Below, one piece after another: positions 39,835-50,141 of a DNA stretch of 64,000 bases (positions are counted from its first letter, which is position 1; the number at the start of each line of letters is the position of its first letter). Under the pieces are notes generated by a model. That model searched no databases. It was not told the DNA's origin and saw only the letters and a list, made by a program, of their open reading frames with translations. The stretch lies in contig JAJDAC010000027.1 of the NCBI GenBank assembly GCA_029262065.1, positions 1-64,000 on the forward strand, given 5' to 3'. Source of the stretch: Candidatus Krumholzibacteriota bacterium (GTDB lineage: Bacteria > Krumholzibacteriota > Krumholzibacteriia > JAJRXK01). Both the position numbers and the translations under genes were made by a program.

Positions 39835-42603
39835 ATGAGCCCCATGATCGAGCCTTCAACCCTGAACGAGCTGGCCCGCGCCTGGGCCGACACGAGCATC
39901 GCACTCACGCTGAAGGGGAGCATGGTCCTGGCCTTCTTCGCTTTGGCGGCTATTTCGCTGCGGCGCGGCTCGGCCGCCCTGCGGCACCTGAGTTGGACCA
40001 CCGGCGTAATGGGCCTGTTGCTGGTCCCGGTACTCAGCTTGGCATTGCCAGCCTGGCAGGTCGCTGTTCTTCCCGCGCCCGAGGCGCCACTGAAGTCCAC
40101 GACCCAGCCGGGGCAGTCGAGTCCTGCCGGAGACTTCCTTCTGGTGAGCGGACCGCAGACCAAGCTCAGCCCAAGTCGCGACAACCAGACGGCATCGATT
40201 CCCTTCGCGGCCTACGCCAACCCTACGACGACCAGATCCTACGAGCCGGCGCGTGCGCTCGAATCCGATACGTCGATTACATCTTCGGTGATGGACTATG
40301 CGCGTCAATTGAACGGCTGGTCGTGGGCGTTCTTCGTCTGGGAAACCGGCATGCTATCCGTACTGGTGTTGTTTGGCGTAGGTGCATTTCGCCTGTGGTG
40401 GCTACGCCGCAACGCGGTGGAGGTCCACTACGGAAGTTGGCGCTCGCAGACCGACGGGCTGGCCGAACAACTTGGTATCAAACAACCCATCAAGCTGCTG
40501 AAGAGCCCGCGAGCCATGACTCCCATGACATGGGGCTACCTGCAACCGGTGGTGCTGCTGCCCGGGAGTGCCGATGAGTGGTCCCTTTCTCAACGACGTG
40601 ACGTGTTGCTGCACGAGCTGGCCCACGTGAAACGTCGCGACTGTCTTACTCAAGCCTTCGCGCAAGTCGCCTGCGCCACCAACTGGTTCAATCCGTTGGT
40701 ATGGATCGCGGCGGCCCAGATGCGCATGGAACGGGAGCGGGCGTGTGACGACCAGGTCTTACTGGCGGGTTCGAAGGCCTCGTCGTACGCCAGCCATCTA
40801 TTGGAGATGGCACGCTCCCTGAAATCGGAGAACTGCGCCTCGCTGGCCAGCGTGGCCATGGCGCGACGCTCGCACCTGAGCGACCGGCTGGTGGCAGTTC
40901 TCGACCCCGAGGCGCGGCGTTGGGCGCCCAACCGGCTGTTGCTGGGCGCCGCCAGCGCGCTGGCGCTGTTCGTTGCAATTCCGGCGGCCACGATCATGCC
41001 GGTGGCCCTGGACAACACGCAGACCGCGCAGGCTGCCCCTCCTGACAACTCGCGTGCACCCAGAGTCCGGTACCCCGTGGCCACCGTGCCATCGGCCCCG
41101 CGGGCGTTCGCAGTACGCCCGACTCCCGCGGTGCCACGCGAACCCGCGTCCCAGCAAACGTGGACGGTACCGGGTCTCGCGGAGGCACCGGTTGCCCCGC
41201 TTACGGTTCGCTGGCCACGCGTGGTCTCCGGATGGGCGCAAGATCCCGGTGACGAACACACCTACATACTGGCCGACCCCGGCCAGCCACTGGTCTTTAC
41301 ACCCGACTCGCAGTCGGGCCCGGTCGTGGCCCAACTCTTCGGCCGCAATTCGCGTAGCAATACCGAATTCAACGGTCGTAGCCGCTGGACCATCAACGAC
41401 GGCTCACAGAAGCTGAGCATCGAGGTAGAAGGCGAGATCGAGTTCAACGACGACCTCACCGATGTCGTGTCGATGGCCGACGACAGCTACTTCGAGATCG
41501 AGCAACGTAAGCGCGGCCGTCGCTATCGCGTGGAGATCGACGTCAACCGTGACGGCGAGCTGGAGAGGTCGTTCTTCGTGCGCGGACGGCGCGAGGAATG
41601 GAACGAAGAAGCCCAGGAGTTCATGGAAGAGGTGCTGCCCGAAGCGCTCCTGAACATGGGCGTGAACGCCGACGCGCGAATGCAGAAGATCTACGAGCGC
41701 GATGGCCTCGACGGCGCGCTGCGCGAGATCAACCGCCTGGATGGTGACCACGCTCGAAGCGCCTACTACCGTGCCCTCATGGGCACCGAAGGCCTTTCGG
41801 ACAAGGAACGCTCGCAGGTACTCGAAGAGGCCGCCCGCGACATCGAGAGTGACTTCGAGCGCGCCCAGCTGTTGGTGAACGGCATGGATCAGTTCATGGA
41901 GAACGATCACATGCGAACGTCACTTCTGGAAGCCGTGGATCAGATCGATTCCGATTTCGAACGCCGGCGGGTTCTGTCGAGCGCCTTGAATCACGATGAC
42001 CTGAAGGGCGAGCACCTACTGCTCCTGCTGGAGAGCATCAACGATATCGACAGCGATTTCGAACGCACCCAGATCCTCACGCAGATCGACCCCGACCTGC
42101 TGGATTCCGAGCCCCTGCTCGACGCCTACTTCCTGAGCGTCGAGCAGATCGACAGCGATTTCGAAACGGCCCGCGCGTTGTCGGAACTGCTGTCCGAGCA
42201 CGGCGATCGACCGGGCATGCTGGCGCGCATTCTCGACACCATGCGCAGCGTCGATTCAGACTTCGAATCGGCCCGCATTCTCACCGGCGCCGCCGGCTAC
42301 TTCGTGGACGACGATGAGCTGCGCGAGTTGTACTTCAATGCCGTCGACGACCTCGACTCCGACTTCGAACGGGCCCGGGTGCTCACGAAAGTGCTGAACC
42401 ATCGTGATCTCTCCGACGCGTCGAAAATGCGGGTCCTGGAGAGCGTCTACGACATCAACTCCGACTTCGAGAAGGCAAGGGTATTGGTGGAGCTGAGCCG
42501 CCGGGGCATCGAGCAGGAAGAACTTCGAGAAGCGTACCTGCGAGCGGCCAAGTCGATCGACTCCGATCATGAGTACGGAAGGGTCATGCGCGCGCTGCGC
42601 TAG
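39835..42603 (+). CDS. M56-family (BlaR1-like) sensor metallopeptidase with SDFE repeats
   Basis: 922 residues, much longer than the ~600 of BlaR1. N-terminal M56 region with membrane segments (~20-80, ~155-180, ~365-390) and zinc motif LLHELAHVKRRDC with NWFNPLVWIAAAQMRMERERACDDQVL (~260-310). No penicillin-binding domain follows. Instead there is a linker, a beta-rich region (~460-600), and eight repeats of about 36 residues from ~669 to the end, each with a core like QIDSDFERARVL. The repeats look like a helical solenoid and are presumably the sensor or interaction part, on the periplasmic side. The partner is the repressor just upstream. Confidence 0.9.
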   Translation: MSPMIEPSTLNELARAWADTSIALTLKGSMVLAFFALAAISLRRGSAALRHLSWTTGVMGLLLVPVLSLALPAWQVAVLPAPEAPLKSTTQPGQSSPAGDFLLVSGPQTKLSPSRDNQTASIPFAAYANPTTTRSYEPARALESDTSITSSVMDYARQLNGWSWAFFVWETGMLSVLVLFGVGAFRLWWLRRNAVEVHYGSWRSQTDGLAEQLGIKQPIKLLKSPRAMTPMTWGYLQPVVLLPGSADEWSLSQRRDVLLHELAHVKRRDCLTQAFAQVACATNWFNPLVWIAAAQMRMERERACDDQVLLAGSKASSYASHLLEMARSLKSENCASLASVAMARRSHLSDRLVAVLDPEARRWAPNRLLLGAASALALFVAIPAATIMPVALDNTQTAQAAPPDNSRAPRVRYPVATVPSAPRAFAVRPTPAVPREPASQQTWTVPGLAEAPVAPLTVRWPRVVSGWAQDPGDEHTYILADPGQPLVFTPDSQSGPVVAQLFGRNSRSNTEFNGRSRWTINDGSQKLSIEVEGEIEFNDDLTDVVSMADDSYFEIEQRKRGRRYRVEIDVNRDGELERSFFVRGRREEWNEEAQEFMEEVLPEALLNMGVNADARMQKIYERDGLDGALREINRLDGDHARSAYYRALMGTEGLSDKERSQVLEEAARDIESDFERAQLLVNGMDQFMENDHMRTSLLEAVDQIDSDFERRRVLSSALNHDDLKGEHLLLLLESINDIDSDFERTQILTQIDPDLLDSEPLLDAYFLSVEQIDSDFETARALSELLSEHGDRPGMLARILDTMRSVDSDFESARILTGAAGYFVDDDELRELYFNAVDDLDSDFERARVLTKVLNHRDLSDASKMRVLESVYDINSDFEKARVLVELSRRGIEQEELREAYLRAAKSIDSDHEYGRVMRALR

Positions 42604-45082: not shown

Positions 45083-46732
45083 CTAGAAGCGGCTGGTTAC
45101 CCGGACTTCAACGCCTTTGAAATCGGGTACCACATAGCAGGTACCAGAAACGCAGTTGGTGCCACCCCGCCGACTTCCCGCAAACAGGGTGACATCGTGA
45201 CGCCAGCCGATGGATCGGCGCACGACCATGGCCAACCATTCACGTGTGTCAGTTTCCACCTCAGTCGTTTGGACGTCGTCAGCCTCGTCCGGATCGTTGG
45301 AACGTTCGTAGTCCAAACCCACGGTCAAGGCACCCGGCAGGGTGGCGATGAGTGCCGCCGCGAAGTTGTCGACGCGCTCGACCACCTGCACCAATTGCAT
45401 TCCCTGAACTCGGGTGAACAATAGATCCTCCACCTGATGCGACAAATCGAGTTCGACGCTCACGTCGGATGTGACCGTGGTCTCGGCCGACAATCCCACG
45501 GTGCGTTGAAAGTCCACCGGCACGATCTCGAATTCATCCAAGCCATCGGCGGCATACACGTTCACACGGAGGTCGCGGGCCGGATCGCTGGCGATACGGG
45601 CGTAGCGCAGCTCGTACTCGCGCCGCGTGCCGAACATACCCAGTGTTTCTTCGCGCCCGGATGCCTGCGCGTGGACGATCTCGGCGGTAACGTCTCCCCA
45701 GGGCGAGGGAATCGACTGACTCCAGGCCAACTGGTGGCCTTTCTCGTCGCGCGACTGAAGCACGTGGGTGGAGCGGTTCAGGAGCTTGGGATCCAACTCG
45801 GGCACCAGCGAAGGCGGATCGTTTACCCGCAGATCAAACTGGTGGTAGTCCTTGGTCTCGAAACTGAATCCGCCACCGGGGTAACTGACCTCGGCGCTGG
45901 AATACAAAGCGTGCGGCGTACCCGTGTTCGTATTGAACCCGTCTTGCCAGGGATTCCAGGCGTCCGCGGCGTACTCGCCATACAGCGAAACATCAACGTC
46001 GTGTTCGACCAGAAGCGGCACAAAACGGGACACCTGCAACGCGACATCCACCGCGCCGCGCTTGCCCTCGGTAAGCTCGGATGTTTCTTCCAGACGAAGG
46101 TAACTGCCGGCCACCCACACGCCGGGCCACGGGCGCGCAGCCAACCTGCCGCCGCTGGCTTCGCCAGAGCGTCGGTCCGGCGGCAGTCCGGGTGGCGCGT
46201 CGGGTAAGATGGTGGGCTCACCGTGAAACACGGTGGCCTCCAACCACTCCGACGAATGCTGCGCGGTAACGCCGTCGAGGTCGCGGTTCTCGGCGTATCC
46301 AATGGTGGGAATCAGGGTCTGACGCACGACTCCCGGAAGTTCAAATGCGCGGAACAGGAGCCCGCGGCCGAGAATCGCGTAGCCGTTGCCCAAGCGAACC
46401 GTGTTGGTCAGGTCCGACCACTCCAGGTATCGCTGCGTAATCTCGTCGTACTCGTAATCATCTCCGCCTGGCCCCACGGCCATTTCGGCGTTGGCTGAAT
46501 CGTGGAACACGTCGACGCGCAGTCCAGCCGCGAGACTCTTAATGCGGTAGTCCAGAATGAACTGGTTGAACAAACGGTTGCGGCCGTCTTCCTCGAGCGT
46601 ACTTCGCGGATTGCGACCGACCTCGAAGATCAGCAGGTTGCTCCCCTGCAGGCTACCGATGTCACGCGCACCAACTCGTTCGGGAACCAGAACGAGAACT
46701 GCGATGACCAGCGACCAAACTCGAACATTCAA
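45083..46732 (-). CDS. DUF6029-like outer membrane beta-barrel protein
   Basis: 549 residues. Signal peptide (MNVRVWSLVIAVLVLVPERVGA), followed by alternating strands typical of a barrel (NRLFNQFILDYRIKSLAAGLRVDVF, LEWSDLTNTVRLGNGYAILGRGLLFRAFELPGV) and a C-terminal phenylalanine (RVTSRF), the usual outer-membrane assembly signal. The N-terminal NRLFNQ...DYR pattern matches the DUF6029 family as I know it. It is coupled by a four-base overlap with the TlpA-like gene upstream. Confidence 0.75.
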   Translation of the reverse strand: MNVRVWSLVIAVLVLVPERVGARDIGSLQGSNLLIFEVGRNPRSTLEEDGRNRLFNQFILDYRIKSLAAGLRVDVFHDSANAEMAVGPGGDDYEYDEITQRYLEWSDLTNTVRLGNGYAILGRGLLFRAFELPGVVRQTLIPTIGYAENRDLDGVTAQHSSEWLEATVFHGEPTILPDAPPGLPPDRRSGEASGGRLAARPWPGVWVAGSYLRLEETSELTEGKRGAVDVALQVSRFVPLLVEHDVDVSLYGEYAADAWNPWQDGFNTNTGTPHALYSSAEVSYPGGGFSFETKDYHQFDLRVNDPPSLVPELDPKLLNRSTHVLQSRDEKGHQLAWSQSIPSPWGDVTAEIVHAQASGREETLGMFGTRREYELRYARIASDPARDLRVNVYAADGLDEFEIVPVDFQRTVGLSAETTVTSDVSVELDLSHQVEDLLFTRVQGMQLVQVVERVDNFAAALIATLPGALTVGLDYERSNDPDEADDVQTTEVETDTREWLAMVVRRSIGWRHDVTLFAGSRRGGTNCVSGTCYVVPDFKGVEVRVTSRF

Positions 46733-47253
46733 CGGGCGTCGTCTGCCTCGGGCTCGAGATTCAACAGTTCGCGAATGTATTTCTCGAGCTCACGCTCGTG
46801 CCCGTCGATGAACCCCACCTGCTGCATCCGGATGTTTCCCTCGGTGTCGATGAGAAAAGATGTGGGCAGCACCTGCACACGCCACTTCCGCCCGACCTGC
46901 TTGTCCGAGTCCAGAACGCACGGCAAGTCCAGCTTCTGCGACTTGAAGAACGCGCCAATCTTGGGCTGGCTACGCGGGTCGTCCTGGCTGACTGCGATTA
47001 CCTGGAAACCTTGTTCGGCATATTTCTCGTATAGCTTCTGGTAGTGCGGAAGCGCCTTCTTGCAGGGTGCGCACCAGGTGGCCCAGAAGTCGAGCAGCAC
47101 GGGACCCTTCTCCAAAGCCTTGGAGAGTTGGAGGTTTCCCCCACCGTAGAGTTTCAGTTTGAAGTCATTCGCGGGCCCCAGATCCTGCAGCTCGGCCTGG
47201 GCCGGCAGCACGAAGAAAAGGGCCAGGACTCCTATGATCAGGAATGTTCGCAA
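46729..47253 (-). CDS. TlpA/ResA-like periplasmic thioredoxin
   Basis: 174 residues. Signal peptide (RTFLIIGVLALFFVLPAQA) and thioredoxin fold with the active site FWATWCAPCKKALPHYQKL near residue 47, then FQVIAVSQDD and the cis-Pro loop QVLPTSFLIDTEGNI. It reduces or isomerises disulfides in the periplasm, for example in cytochrome c maturation. The TTG start at 47253 is set by AGGAG eight bases upstream; no ATG/GTG is available nearby. It is divergent from the selenoprotein pair. Confidence 0.92.
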   Translation of the reverse strand: MRTFLIIGVLALFFVLPAQAELQDLGPANDFKLKLYGGGNLQLSKALEKGPVLLDFWATWCAPCKKALPHYQKLYEKYAEQGFQVIAVSQDDPRSQPKIGAFFKSQKLDLPCVLDSDKQVGRKWRVQVLPTSFLIDTEGNIRMQQVGFIDGHERELEKYIRELLNLEPEADDAR

Positions 47254-47417
47254 GATGTTTACTCCTGTGGGTAGGCGAGGTTCAAACACGATACCGTAGG
47301 CTTTCCATTGGAGCCACAAGCGGGTGACCCCATCGCTACGCGGGCGGGACCCTGCCGTGACGGCCTCGTGGTGTTAGTATTGAACGCTGGTTCCCCAACG
47401 AAGTTTCTGGAGATGAT

Positions 47418-47987
47418 TTGCTAGTGAAGACGCCAAGATTCATCCGGCAGGGGCTCGCGGGCCTCTCGCTGATTTCCGTCCTTTTCGCGATCCCGGCCCA
47501 GGCCGCAATCTCGGTGGGAGACGTCGCGCCCGACTTCACCCTGAACGACATTTTCGGCAACAGCTACACCCTCAGCGAGTTGGAAGGCAGCGTTGTCGTC
47601 TTGTTCATCGTGGGGTATGGCTGAGTATTCTGCCGCCAGGCCGGTCCGGCCTCCGAAGCTCTCTATCAAGAATATCAGGGCCGCCGTGTGGTGTTCCTTG
47701 CCCTCGACGCCTGGAACGGCAGCACGTCCCAGGTCGGTAGCTTCATCAGCGCTACGGGAATTACCTACCCGGTGCTCTCGCAGGCCTCGTCCGTCGCGAG
47801 CACCTACGGGCTGAGCTACGACACCGTGTTCATCGTCGGCGGCGACGGGACCATCGGCATGGCCGACGCCACCGGATTCAACGCCGAGAGCGTGCGATCG
47901 ATCATCGGCTTCGAACTAACGCAGCTGCCCGTGCCCACGACGGCCGAAAGCTTCGGGTCGGTGAAGGCGCTGTTCAACACACCCTAG
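47418..47987 (+). CDS. Exported thioredoxin-like selenoprotein (UVFC)
   Basis: 189 residues if UGA at 47622-47624 is read as selenocysteine (Sec69). Signal peptide ends near AIPAQA; mature part is a redoxin fold: ISVGDVAPDFTLNDIFGNSYTLSELEGSVVVLFIVGYG, Sec, then VFCRQAGPASEALYQEY and VVFLALDAWNG, with TYPVLS and DTVFIVGGDGTIG. Sec69-Val-Phe-Cys72 replaces the CxxC of thioredoxins. The frame continues without any other stop to TAG-type end at 47985. The TTG start has GGAG five bases before. TGA is a normal stop in neighbouring genes, so recoding is local. A paralogue with UGA at the same place follows 71 bases downstream. Confidence 0.88.
47638..47652 (+). promoter_or_regulatory. Candidate bacterial SECIS hairpin (gene 1)
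   Basis: AGGCCG-GUC-CGGCCU forms a 6-bp stem with the conserved-type G at the loop; the sequence GGUC lies 19-22 bases after the UGA. Known bacterial SECIS elements have an apical loop with G in the first positions 16-37 bases after UGA. Confidence 0.75.
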
Positions 47988-48058
47988 GCCCTGTCACGAC
48001 CAGCAGCAGAGCGGCGTAGGAGTACTGAAGTTCGCACCACGTTCTGGAGCTGGAAAAC

Positions 48059-48622
48059 ATGAACCCATTTCGCCCCATCCAGCGCCGTGTGGCGGCCCTG
48101 ACGCTGGCCGCCACGCTACTGGCCGGGTCGGCCAGCGCCGCGATCCAACCCGGTGATCCCGCCCCCGACTTCACGCTTTCCGACATTTTCGGCAACAGCT
48201 ACACGCTGAGCGCGCTGCGAGGCAACGTCGTATTCCTGTTCATGATTGGGTATGGCTGACCCTTCTGTCAGCAGGCCGGTCCGGCCTCTCAGGCTCTCTA
48301 CATGGAATTCCAGGATCGCCGCGTGAAGTTCCTCGCCCTGGACGCGTGGGACGGCAACATCGGACAAGTAGGCAGCTTCATTACCGCCTCGAGCATCTCA
48401 TATCCCGTACTGATGCGCGCGTCGAACGTGGCCAACACCCTCTACGGATTGCGACACGACAGCGTGTTCGTGATCGGCGGCGACGGCATCGTGGGCTTCG
48501 CCGATGCTCGCGGTTTCAGCCCCATCAATATTCGAGCGGCCATCGAAATCGAGCTCGAGAAGTTGGCGGTGCCGGTGCGGGGGGAGAGTTTCGGGGCGGT
48601 CAAGGCGTTGTTCGTGGAGTAG
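48059..48622 (+). CDS. Exported thioredoxin-like selenoprotein (UPFC)
   Basis: 187 residues with UGA at 48257-48259 read as Sec67. Signal peptide (RRVAALTLAATLLAGSASA), mature part IQPGDPAPDFTLSDIFGNSYTLSALRGNVVFLFMIGYG, Sec, then PFCQQAGPASQALYMEF and VKFLALDAWDG, with VFVIGGDGIVG. It is a close paralogue of the gene upstream (same order of motifs; many identical residues). Sec67-Pro-Phe-Cys70 is the likely redox site. Start ATG 48059 is preceded by CTGGAG. The pair probably forms one transcript. Selenocysteine machinery (selA, selB, selC, selD) is not in the window. Confidence 0.88.
48273..48287 (+). promoter_or_regulatory. Candidate bacterial SECIS hairpin (gene 2)
   Basis: The same 15 bases AGGCCG-GUC-CGGCCU as in gene 1, with GGUC again at 19-22 bases after UGA, while flanking codons differ between the two genes. 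The conservation of a hairpin at a fixed distance is what a SECIS requires. Confidence 0.75.
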
Positions 48623-48676
48623 ATGGAACCGGGTGCGGTGGGGGCCGGGTGCGGGTTGCGTTGGTGCTGGCCGGTT

Positions 48677-48800
48677 GCGTGCACATACATGATCGTTCGC
48701 TAGTCCTCGCTTTGGCCCGGCCTGTTGGCATCGTGGGTACAACAGGCTAAGGCGGGCCGGGCCTCGCTGCGGAAACGCTCTCGACCATGTATGTGCACGC
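48677..48800. repeat. Inverted-unit repeat, left copy (MITE-like)
   Basis: 124-bp unit bounded by 15-bp terminal inverted repeats, GCGTGCACATACATG (48677-48691) and its complement (48786-48800). The subterminal 34 and 26 bases are shared with the right copy; the ~55-base centre differs but still has inverted ends (GGCCCGG...CCGGGCC). Confidence 0.8.
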
Positions 48801-48956
48801 GCCCTACTTCTCGGAAATGCGTTCGACCTGACGGCCACGCGACTGTCTGAACTGCCGATCTCGAACGGCCCGCGCGGCCGTTGCCGCGCCAGCCCTCGCA
48901 CGAGAACCCAGGAACGAGACTCCGCGTTCTTCGCCGGAACATCTGAGCGCTAGGTT

Positions 48957-49084
48957 GCGGGCTCATACATGGTCGAGAGCGTTTCCGCAGCCACCCCGGC
49001 CGCTGCAATACCCCCCCGCCAGGCCCCGAACCAAAACCCGGCCGGGGTAGGCGAGGACTAGCGAACGATCATGTATGTGCACGC
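48957..49084. repeat. Inverted-unit repeat, right copy (MITE-like)
   Basis: 128-bp copy in the opposite orientation. Its outer end (49051-49089) is the exact complement of 48672-48710, a 39-base match; a second 28-base match joins 48964-48991 and 48766-48793. The inner terminal repeat is slightly decayed (13 of 15). The centre has CCCCGGCC...GGCCGGGG, paired but different in sequence from the left copy. The 559-base gap between the second selenoprotein and the Cys-repeat gene contains only these units, a 156-base spacer and a terminator; no gene is supported. Confidence 0.8.
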
Positions 49085-49118
49085 AACCGACCCACCGCAA
49101 CCGGCCCAAAAAAGGGCA

Positions 49119-49181: not shown

Positions 49182-49982
49182 TTACTCGCCTTCAGTCTCC
49201 ACGGCCGGAGTGGCCAGGGCCACTTCGTACTGCTTCTGGTACTCGTCGATGACGTCAGCCTTTTCGCTGGTCACGAGGAACATCACGCCGTTGGCCATCT
49301 TGGTCATTTCGACGTTGCAGCTCTCGTTCTTGGCCATCGAGCCAGCCAGCGCACAACCGAAGTTCTCGGCGCCGCCCGCGGCCTTGGCCTGCAGGCCAGC
49401 GACGGTGGCATCGGTGGTACCGGTGTAGAACACAGCCAGCGTGCCCGAGGGCAGACGCACGGCTTCGACCTTCATGTCGGCCGGGTAGGCAGCCGACTTG
49501 GACGAGCAGCTACCGGCACCGGCGACGGCCGCGTCAGCGGTCTTCGAGGCACAGCTGGCCTTGGTACCGGCGACGGCGGCGTCAGCGGTCTTCGACGAGC
49601 AAGCAGCCTTCGTACCGGCGACGGCGGCGTCAGCGGTCTTCGACGAGCAAGCGGCCTTGGTACCGGCGACGGCGGCGTCAGCGGTCTTCGAGGAACAAGC
49701 AGCCTTGGTACCGGCGACGGCGGCGTCAGCGGTCTTCGACGAGCAAGCGGCCTTCGTACCGGCGACGGCGGCGTCAGCGGTCTTCGACGAGCAAGCAGCC
49801 TTGGTACCGGCGACGGCGGCGTCAGCGGTCTTCGAGGCACTGCTGGCCTGGGCGACCTTGGCGTCCGCGGTCTTGGCGGCAGCCGAGCTGGCGGTCTTGT
49901 CACAGGCGAGGGCCATCGAGGCCATGGAAGCCACGACCATCACGGACAAAGCCGCTACAGCAAGGATCTTCAGAGTACGCAT
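49182..49982 (-). CDS. Exported Cys-rich protein with 16-residue tandem repeats
   Basis: 266 residues. Signal peptide (MRTLKILAVAALSVMVVASMASMALA) followed by Ala-rich sequence and seven tandem copies of a 16-residue unit, SKTADAAVAGTKAACS, encoded by 48-bp repeats at about 49500-49840; most copies carry one cysteine. The C-terminal ~105 residues form a compact domain (MKVEAVRLPSGTLAVFYTG...NFGCALAGSMAKNESCNVEMTKMANGVMFLVTSEKADVIDEYQ). I recognise no characterised family. ATG 49982 follows GGAGAGG. The free cysteines suggest a metal- or thiol-buffering periplasmic role; this is an inference, supported only by the nearby TlpA and selenoprotein genes. Confidence 0.85.
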   Translation of the reverse strand: MRTLKILAVAALSVMVVASMASMALACDKTASSAAAKTADAKVAQASSASKTADAAVAGTKAACSSKTADAAVAGTKAACSSKTADAAVAGTKAACSSKTADAAVAGTKAACSSKTADAAVAGTKAACSSKTADAAVAGTKASCASKTADAAVAGAGSCSSKSAAYPADMKVEAVRLPSGTLAVFYTGTTDATVAGLQAKAAGGAENFGCALAGSMAKNESCNVEMTKMANGVMFLVTSEKADVIDEYQKQYEVALATPAVETEGE

Positions 49983-50141
49983 TGAGTTTGCCTCTCCAAG
50001 AGGGGGTTGGGTTGTTACGGATTCTTTGATGAACCGGGCGGGCCAAAGACCCACTGGGCTCACGAGCAATTCGTACGCCCTAGTATACGCATGGGTGCCC
50101 AAAATGGTGTCAATTCCCTGTCACATGGGAACGAAGAATCT

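Follow-up and report, generated by a model that had tools for sequence, protein, structure and literature searches.

Probable bSECIS hairpins after the in-frame UGA codons of tandem ResA/TlpA-like genes in a Krumholzibacteriota genome

Two neighboring genes in the window (the whole stretch of 64,000 nucleotides that was analyzed) each contain an in-frame UGA followed by the same small hairpin, and we consider it very likely, with a probability of roughly 0.94, that both hairpins are genuine bSECIS elements. This interpretation, which was that of the original prediction, is supported because the source genome has the full selenocysteine (Sec) machinery, 34 homologs carry the UGA, the homologs show constraint at the RNA level, and the hairpins agree with the published bSECIS rules. 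In such a system, SelB-GTP with Sec-tRNA(Sec) would bind the apical loop 3′ of the UGA as the ribosome arrives, and selenocysteine would be delivered at the UGA in place of termination. The mechanism is an ordinary, known one; the novelty lies in finding it in this protein subfamily and phylum and in a hairpin that appears to move, and these are the parts a specialist has possibly not seen before.

The two window genes and their hairpins

The two genes are arranged in tandem and their products have 61% protein identity (Table 1). The start codon of gene 1 is uncertain, being either TTG at 47418 or GTG at 47424. Both products have an AhpC-TSA domain (PF00578) and are ResA/TlpA-like with a UxxC motif; none of the NCBIfam models scored above its cut-off against either protein. 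The closest solved relatives by sequence were ResA and similar thiol-disulfide oxidoreductases, and by fold ResA ranked first (predicted model, mean pLDDT 87.8). The likeness to the ResA/TlpA oxidoreductases lies in the thioredoxin fold, whereas the difference is that here Sec stands for the first Cys of CxxC, in a GYG-U-xxC rather than a TWCxPC-like motif. From their sequences, both products are predicted to be ResA/TlpA-type thiol-disulfide oxidoreductases with Sec as the first active-site Cys and a presumed redox function, and the look of their N-termini suggests that both are exported. PF00578 and UxxC are also shared with the Prx-like thiol:disulfide oxidoreductase selenoproteins, a likeness by domain and motif definition only. 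According to two reports, selenoproteins with UxxC and PF00578 are already known (PMC13188914, PMC1794560), WP_010940744.1 being an example reference member of the Prx-like UxxC group.

The open reading frames listed for the window end at both UGAs, and both genes are likely cut off by standard gene callers because of these in-frame codons. A divergent gene for a TlpA-like protein with cysteines (TWCAPC) adjoins the pair.

Table 1. Features of the window discussed in the text.
Feature	Positions	Strand	Remarks
Selenoprotein gene 1	47418..47987	+	189 aa translated with TGA=U; PF00578, 5e-16; GYG-U-VFC
Internal UGA of gene 1, putative Sec codon (U69)	47622..47624	+	First CxxC Cys column of the homologs
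Probable bSECIS hairpin AGGCCG-GUC-CGGCCU, gene 1	47638..47652	+	Exact match; bare hairpin −8.6 kcal/mol
Selenoprotein gene 2 (paralogous to gene 1)	48059..48622	+	187 aa translated with TGA=U; PF00578, 4.8e-16; GYG-U-PFC
Internal UGA of gene 2, putative Sec codon (U67)	48257..48259	+	Aligns with first Cys of ResA motif
Probable bSECIS hairpin AGGCCG-GUC-CGGCCU, gene 2	48273..48287	+	Exact match
TlpA-like protein	46729-47319	−	TWCAPC; divergent
Paired inverted repeats	48660-49101		~130 bases; arms 48660-48710/49051-49101 and 48766-48815/48942-48991
Protein with many repeats	49182-50102	−	Repeats of KTADAAVAGTKAACSS
922-aa protein	39835-42603	+	HELAH region, then repeated IDSDFE-like units

The hairpin 15-mer (AGGCCGGUCCGGCCU) occurs in two exact copies, one after each UGA as had been predicted, and no other mismatch-free copy was found in the window. 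With up to three mismatches there were 11 matches on both window strands, compared to 4.1 expected, two of which were the same sites on the minus strand. In both genes the hairpin starts at +14 from the last UGA base (a gap of 13 nt), which places GGUC at +19 to +22, and it consists of an unbroken, GC-rich stem of 6 bp and an apical loop of 3 nt, GUC. The loop codon is GGT in both genes; GGT accounts for 21.5% of the Gly codons in the long window ORFs.

The original prediction also held that the hairpin is identical between the genes while the flanks have drifted. The codons of the hairpin were indeed identical (5/5, including 4/4 of the 4-fold codons), compared to 13/28 identical codons 3′ of the hairpin and 9/17 5′ of the UGA, but this is weak evidence, as the two genes share a longer identical run of 24 nt in a coding part upstream (CGACATTTTCGGCAACAGCTACAC); identity of the hairpin was for that reason rejected as proof. 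Folding energy was also rejected as proof, since the energies of the 50 nt from the UGA were not unusual (z of 0.05 and 0.74). For gene 2, the minimum-energy fold of these 50 nt differs from the hairpin, having a loop without G and not being the fold of gene 1, and the centroid is the hairpin. Out of 100 synonymous recodings per gene, 25 and 31 equaled the window hairpins by energy, and by pair count 23.6% and 17.1% of 1000 did so; with 17–31% of recodings doing equally well, these single-gene tests were not accepted as proof either. By themselves, the window hairpins are not exceptional and are not significant evidence. Scans of the window against Rfam and for tRNAs each gave 0 hits.

The fdhF SECIS of E. 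coli is similar in being a hairpin in the coding sequence right after the UGA, with GGUC at +19 to +22. This distance, given in the original prediction, was borne out by a stretch of 42 fdhF bases that has GGTC at +19 to +22 after the TGA and matched 5,368 of 5,426 E. coli genomes, with fdhF as the annotation in the two rows listed. In the fdhF SECIS, the GGUC loop is closed by an A-U pair and the stem has a bulged U, whereas the window hairpins have an unbroken 6-bp GC-rich stem, G-GUC-C, and no bulge.

In PMC13188914, which restates the Zhang and Gladyshev model, a bSECIS element has an apical loop of 3-9 nt, an upper stem of 4-16 bp, a G within the first two loop positions that is usually followed by G or U, a distance of 16-37 nt from the UGA to the apical loop, and an MFE of −7.5 kcal/mol or lower. 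Both window genes have an in-frame UGA directly 5′ of the hairpin within the coding sequence, a GUC loop on a 6-bp stem, a G followed by U at the loop start, a UGA-to-loop spacing of 19 nt and, for the bare 15-mer, an MFE of −8.6 kcal/mol, so that none of the features tested departed from the consensus model. The energy rule is a weak test, being passed by 34/34 UGA homologs and also by 4/12 non-UGA control rows, and it was rejected as proof because of these controls. Across the homologs, the structure was kept and the position of the hairpin was not. The prediction of bSECIS elements is said to remain difficult in PMC12013277.

Selenocysteine machinery and homologs in the phylum

The source genome (G000; 5.77 Mb in 59 contigs) was found to contain all four components of a Sec system within one genome: SelA (468 bits), SelB (354 bits, matched over its full length and carrying both winged-helix domains, SelB-wing_2 and SelB-wing_3), SelD (336 bits, its GUAAK motif holding a single in-frame TGA) and a tRNA-Sec with the anticodon UCA. 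A survey of 80 Krumholzibacteriota genomes identified SelB in 74, tRNA-Sec in 69 and SelD in 77, the SelD genes mostly having one TGA, and Sec use appears to extend almost throughout the phylum. The hairpins of SelD in the phylum have their loop near +18 to +21 in readable cases; for the SelD of L118 and of the source genome the best-scoring fold is another one, and an AGUC/GACU pairing around CGGGC at +17 to +21 is visible by eye in the source-genome gene. SelD without a TGA was observed inside open frames of ~740-830 aa (G074, G079, G057, G003 and others), which are probably fusions, sometimes with a second SelD with a TGA beside them. In the literature collection searched, nothing was found on selenoproteins in Krumholzibacteriota and hardly anything on selenocysteine in this group.

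The search for homologs of the window genes in the 80 genomes (E ≤ 1e-18) gave 37 matches in 30 genomes. An in-frame TGA was present in 34 of these, from 28 genomes (33 genes with one TGA and one with two), and in 34/34 it occupied the column of the motif's first Cys. The three homologs without a TGA (L026, the minus-strand gene of L051, and L055) were excluded from the 34, as were two TWU genes of L051; two loci obtained by searching named genomes were apparently the genes of L029 and L030 and were not counted twice. L026 has TGT at the Sec position, and pairing around +20 is absent from it as read by eye. Sec and Cys stand in for one another at this conserved redox position, as seen in the TGT of L026 and in the alignment of U67 with the first Cys of ResA.

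Several of the relatives had features of their own. The homolog of L053 (G068) has two in-frame TGAs, giving UxxU. Two TlpA-like genes with TWU-PxC on the plus strand of L051 (G007, offsets 504 and 1054) have strong hairpins of 7-8 bp whose loops, GUU and GGA, lie at +22, and are further selenoprotein candidates. The homolog of L024 (G002) has a C-terminal extension with PNPFNP, which we take to resemble FlgD-like or sorting domains, and open frames of ~270-330 aa were seen in many relatives.

Constraint on the hairpin and its changing position

The comparative evidence for constraint at the RNA level is strong. At a fixed register of +26, pairing over the 34 genes was 187/272, whereas 1000 synonymous recodings gave 143.6 (sd 5.6, maximum 166), and sliding the partner strand gave at most 152 pairs. 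The +20 register was also above its null over the same rows (154 compared to 130.2, sd 5.9, highest 149). This test involved no choice of rows, yet the register was picked after the rows had been seen, related rows are not independent, and the null uses pooled codon usage. In 20 hairpins aligned by their loops, 85% of positions were paired, compared to 64.4% when shuffled and at most 48.8% when slid, and there were changes on both sides in 8/8 stem pairs. These hairpins (from 18 family genes and two L051 genes) were selected out of 36 because they pair cleanly, with the best register taken for every hairpin separately, and because of this choice the covariation leans towards structure.

Codon usage in the loop pointed the same way. 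At the codon at +25 to +27, Gly was encoded by GGT in 15/18 cases, compared to 18.3% elsewhere (p 4e-9), and by GGC in 0/18, although in the remainder of these genes 47% of the Gly codons are GGC; where the residue was Ser, it was encoded by AGT in 7/10, compared to 8.6% elsewhere (p 3e-6). The GGT share was lower in all other Gly columns with at least nine rows, the next being 0.56 (5/9) and 0.53 (10/19), and the latter column is the codon at +19 to +21, from which the window loop is made.

A covariance model built on the hairpin (R1) lacks genome-wide specificity: on the source genome it gave four weak hits, the best with an E of 1.62 and none in the window. When the search was limited to the window and L089, the two window sites came first (E of 0.023 and 0.084), both being members of the training set.

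The distance from the UGA, predicted to be fixed, is the same in both window genes and differs among the relatives. In most of these the loop is at +26, some 6 nt 3′ of its window position, with GGCC-CCG-GUN-CGG-A-GGCC or a similar sequence, and this includes L024, the closest relative outside the genus. The +20 register is found in the window genes, L025 and L052, the latter two pairing around GGT at +19 to +21; the loop is at about +17 to +19 in L028, L034 and L050, and at about +22 to +23 in L042, which has an extra codon ahead of the hairpin. The window hairpins and the covarying relatives have the CCG-GUN-CGG core in common. Loss of the hairpin from homologous selenoproteins would have spoken against the original prediction, and what the homologs showed was a hairpin moved, not lost. 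In a tree of 36 rows, which left out L055 through a TW-motif filter, the register-20 genes formed one group in 27% of bootstrap trees; the register labels were assigned by the analyst, the weak rows being L024, L032, the first gene of L033, L036 and L040.

The conserved feature is a small loop starting with G on a stem, and not its position, in agreement with the bSECIS model as given in PMC13188914. The observed loop range fits the 16-37 nt stated there, and so an exact E. coli-like distance is not conserved in the family. We lean cautiously towards the view that the SECIS hairpin moved within one homologous selenoprotein family (~+17, +20, +23 and +26) with no shift of the UGA or the active site, and that in G065-G068 one SelB serves both SelD at ~+18 to +21 and the redoxin at +26. 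If this is true, the family is a natural experiment on the tolerance of SelB for the distance from UGA to loop, and the moving hairpin provides usable data for bSECIS prediction.

Alternative readings and neighboring features

The UGAs might be Sec codons and the hairpins a by-product of coding, high GC and recent duplication, with another fold nearby as the recognition element. The frequency with which synonymous recodings equal the window hairpins, the differing minimum-energy fold of gene 2 and the +26 position in L024 would fit such a by-product. However, the competing gene 2 fold has a G-less loop and is not shared with gene 1, the register-20 homologs pair around the same GGT, and the core is shared with covarying relatives; we regard this explanation as unlikely.

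UGA is the commonest stop of the long window ORFs, terminating 20/37, as it might if both UGAs were ordinary stops in decayed or split pseudogenes. That reading is nearly refuted, and we consider it highly improbable, by the TGA at the same codon in the 34 homologs, by the purifying selection that persists 3′ of the UGA (pS 0.577, pN 0.246) and by the full Sec machinery in the genome. It is similarly improbable that a near-cognate or suppressor tRNA reads the UGA as Cys or Trp independently of the hairpin: the Cys at the UGA position of L026 is in keeping with this, but the genome has tRNA-Sec(UCA), SelA, SelB and SelD, and the hairpin is constrained across the homologs. As a near-perfect DNA palindrome, the hairpin could also be some other DNA or mRNA feature, for example a protein-binding site or attenuator. 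We give this almost no credence, since the hairpins of the homologs are tied to the UGA, the palindrome occurs nowhere else in the window and no T run follows it.

Other features were observed near the selenoprotein pair (Table 1). The paired inverted repeats are a REP-like element; a similar head-to-head pair is present in the source genome at G000:C17:31732-32055, with two partial copies elsewhere. Beyond these repeats, a gene on the minus strand encodes the protein with many repeats of a short sequence. The 922-aa protein with the HELAH region presumably resembles an M56-type peptidase.
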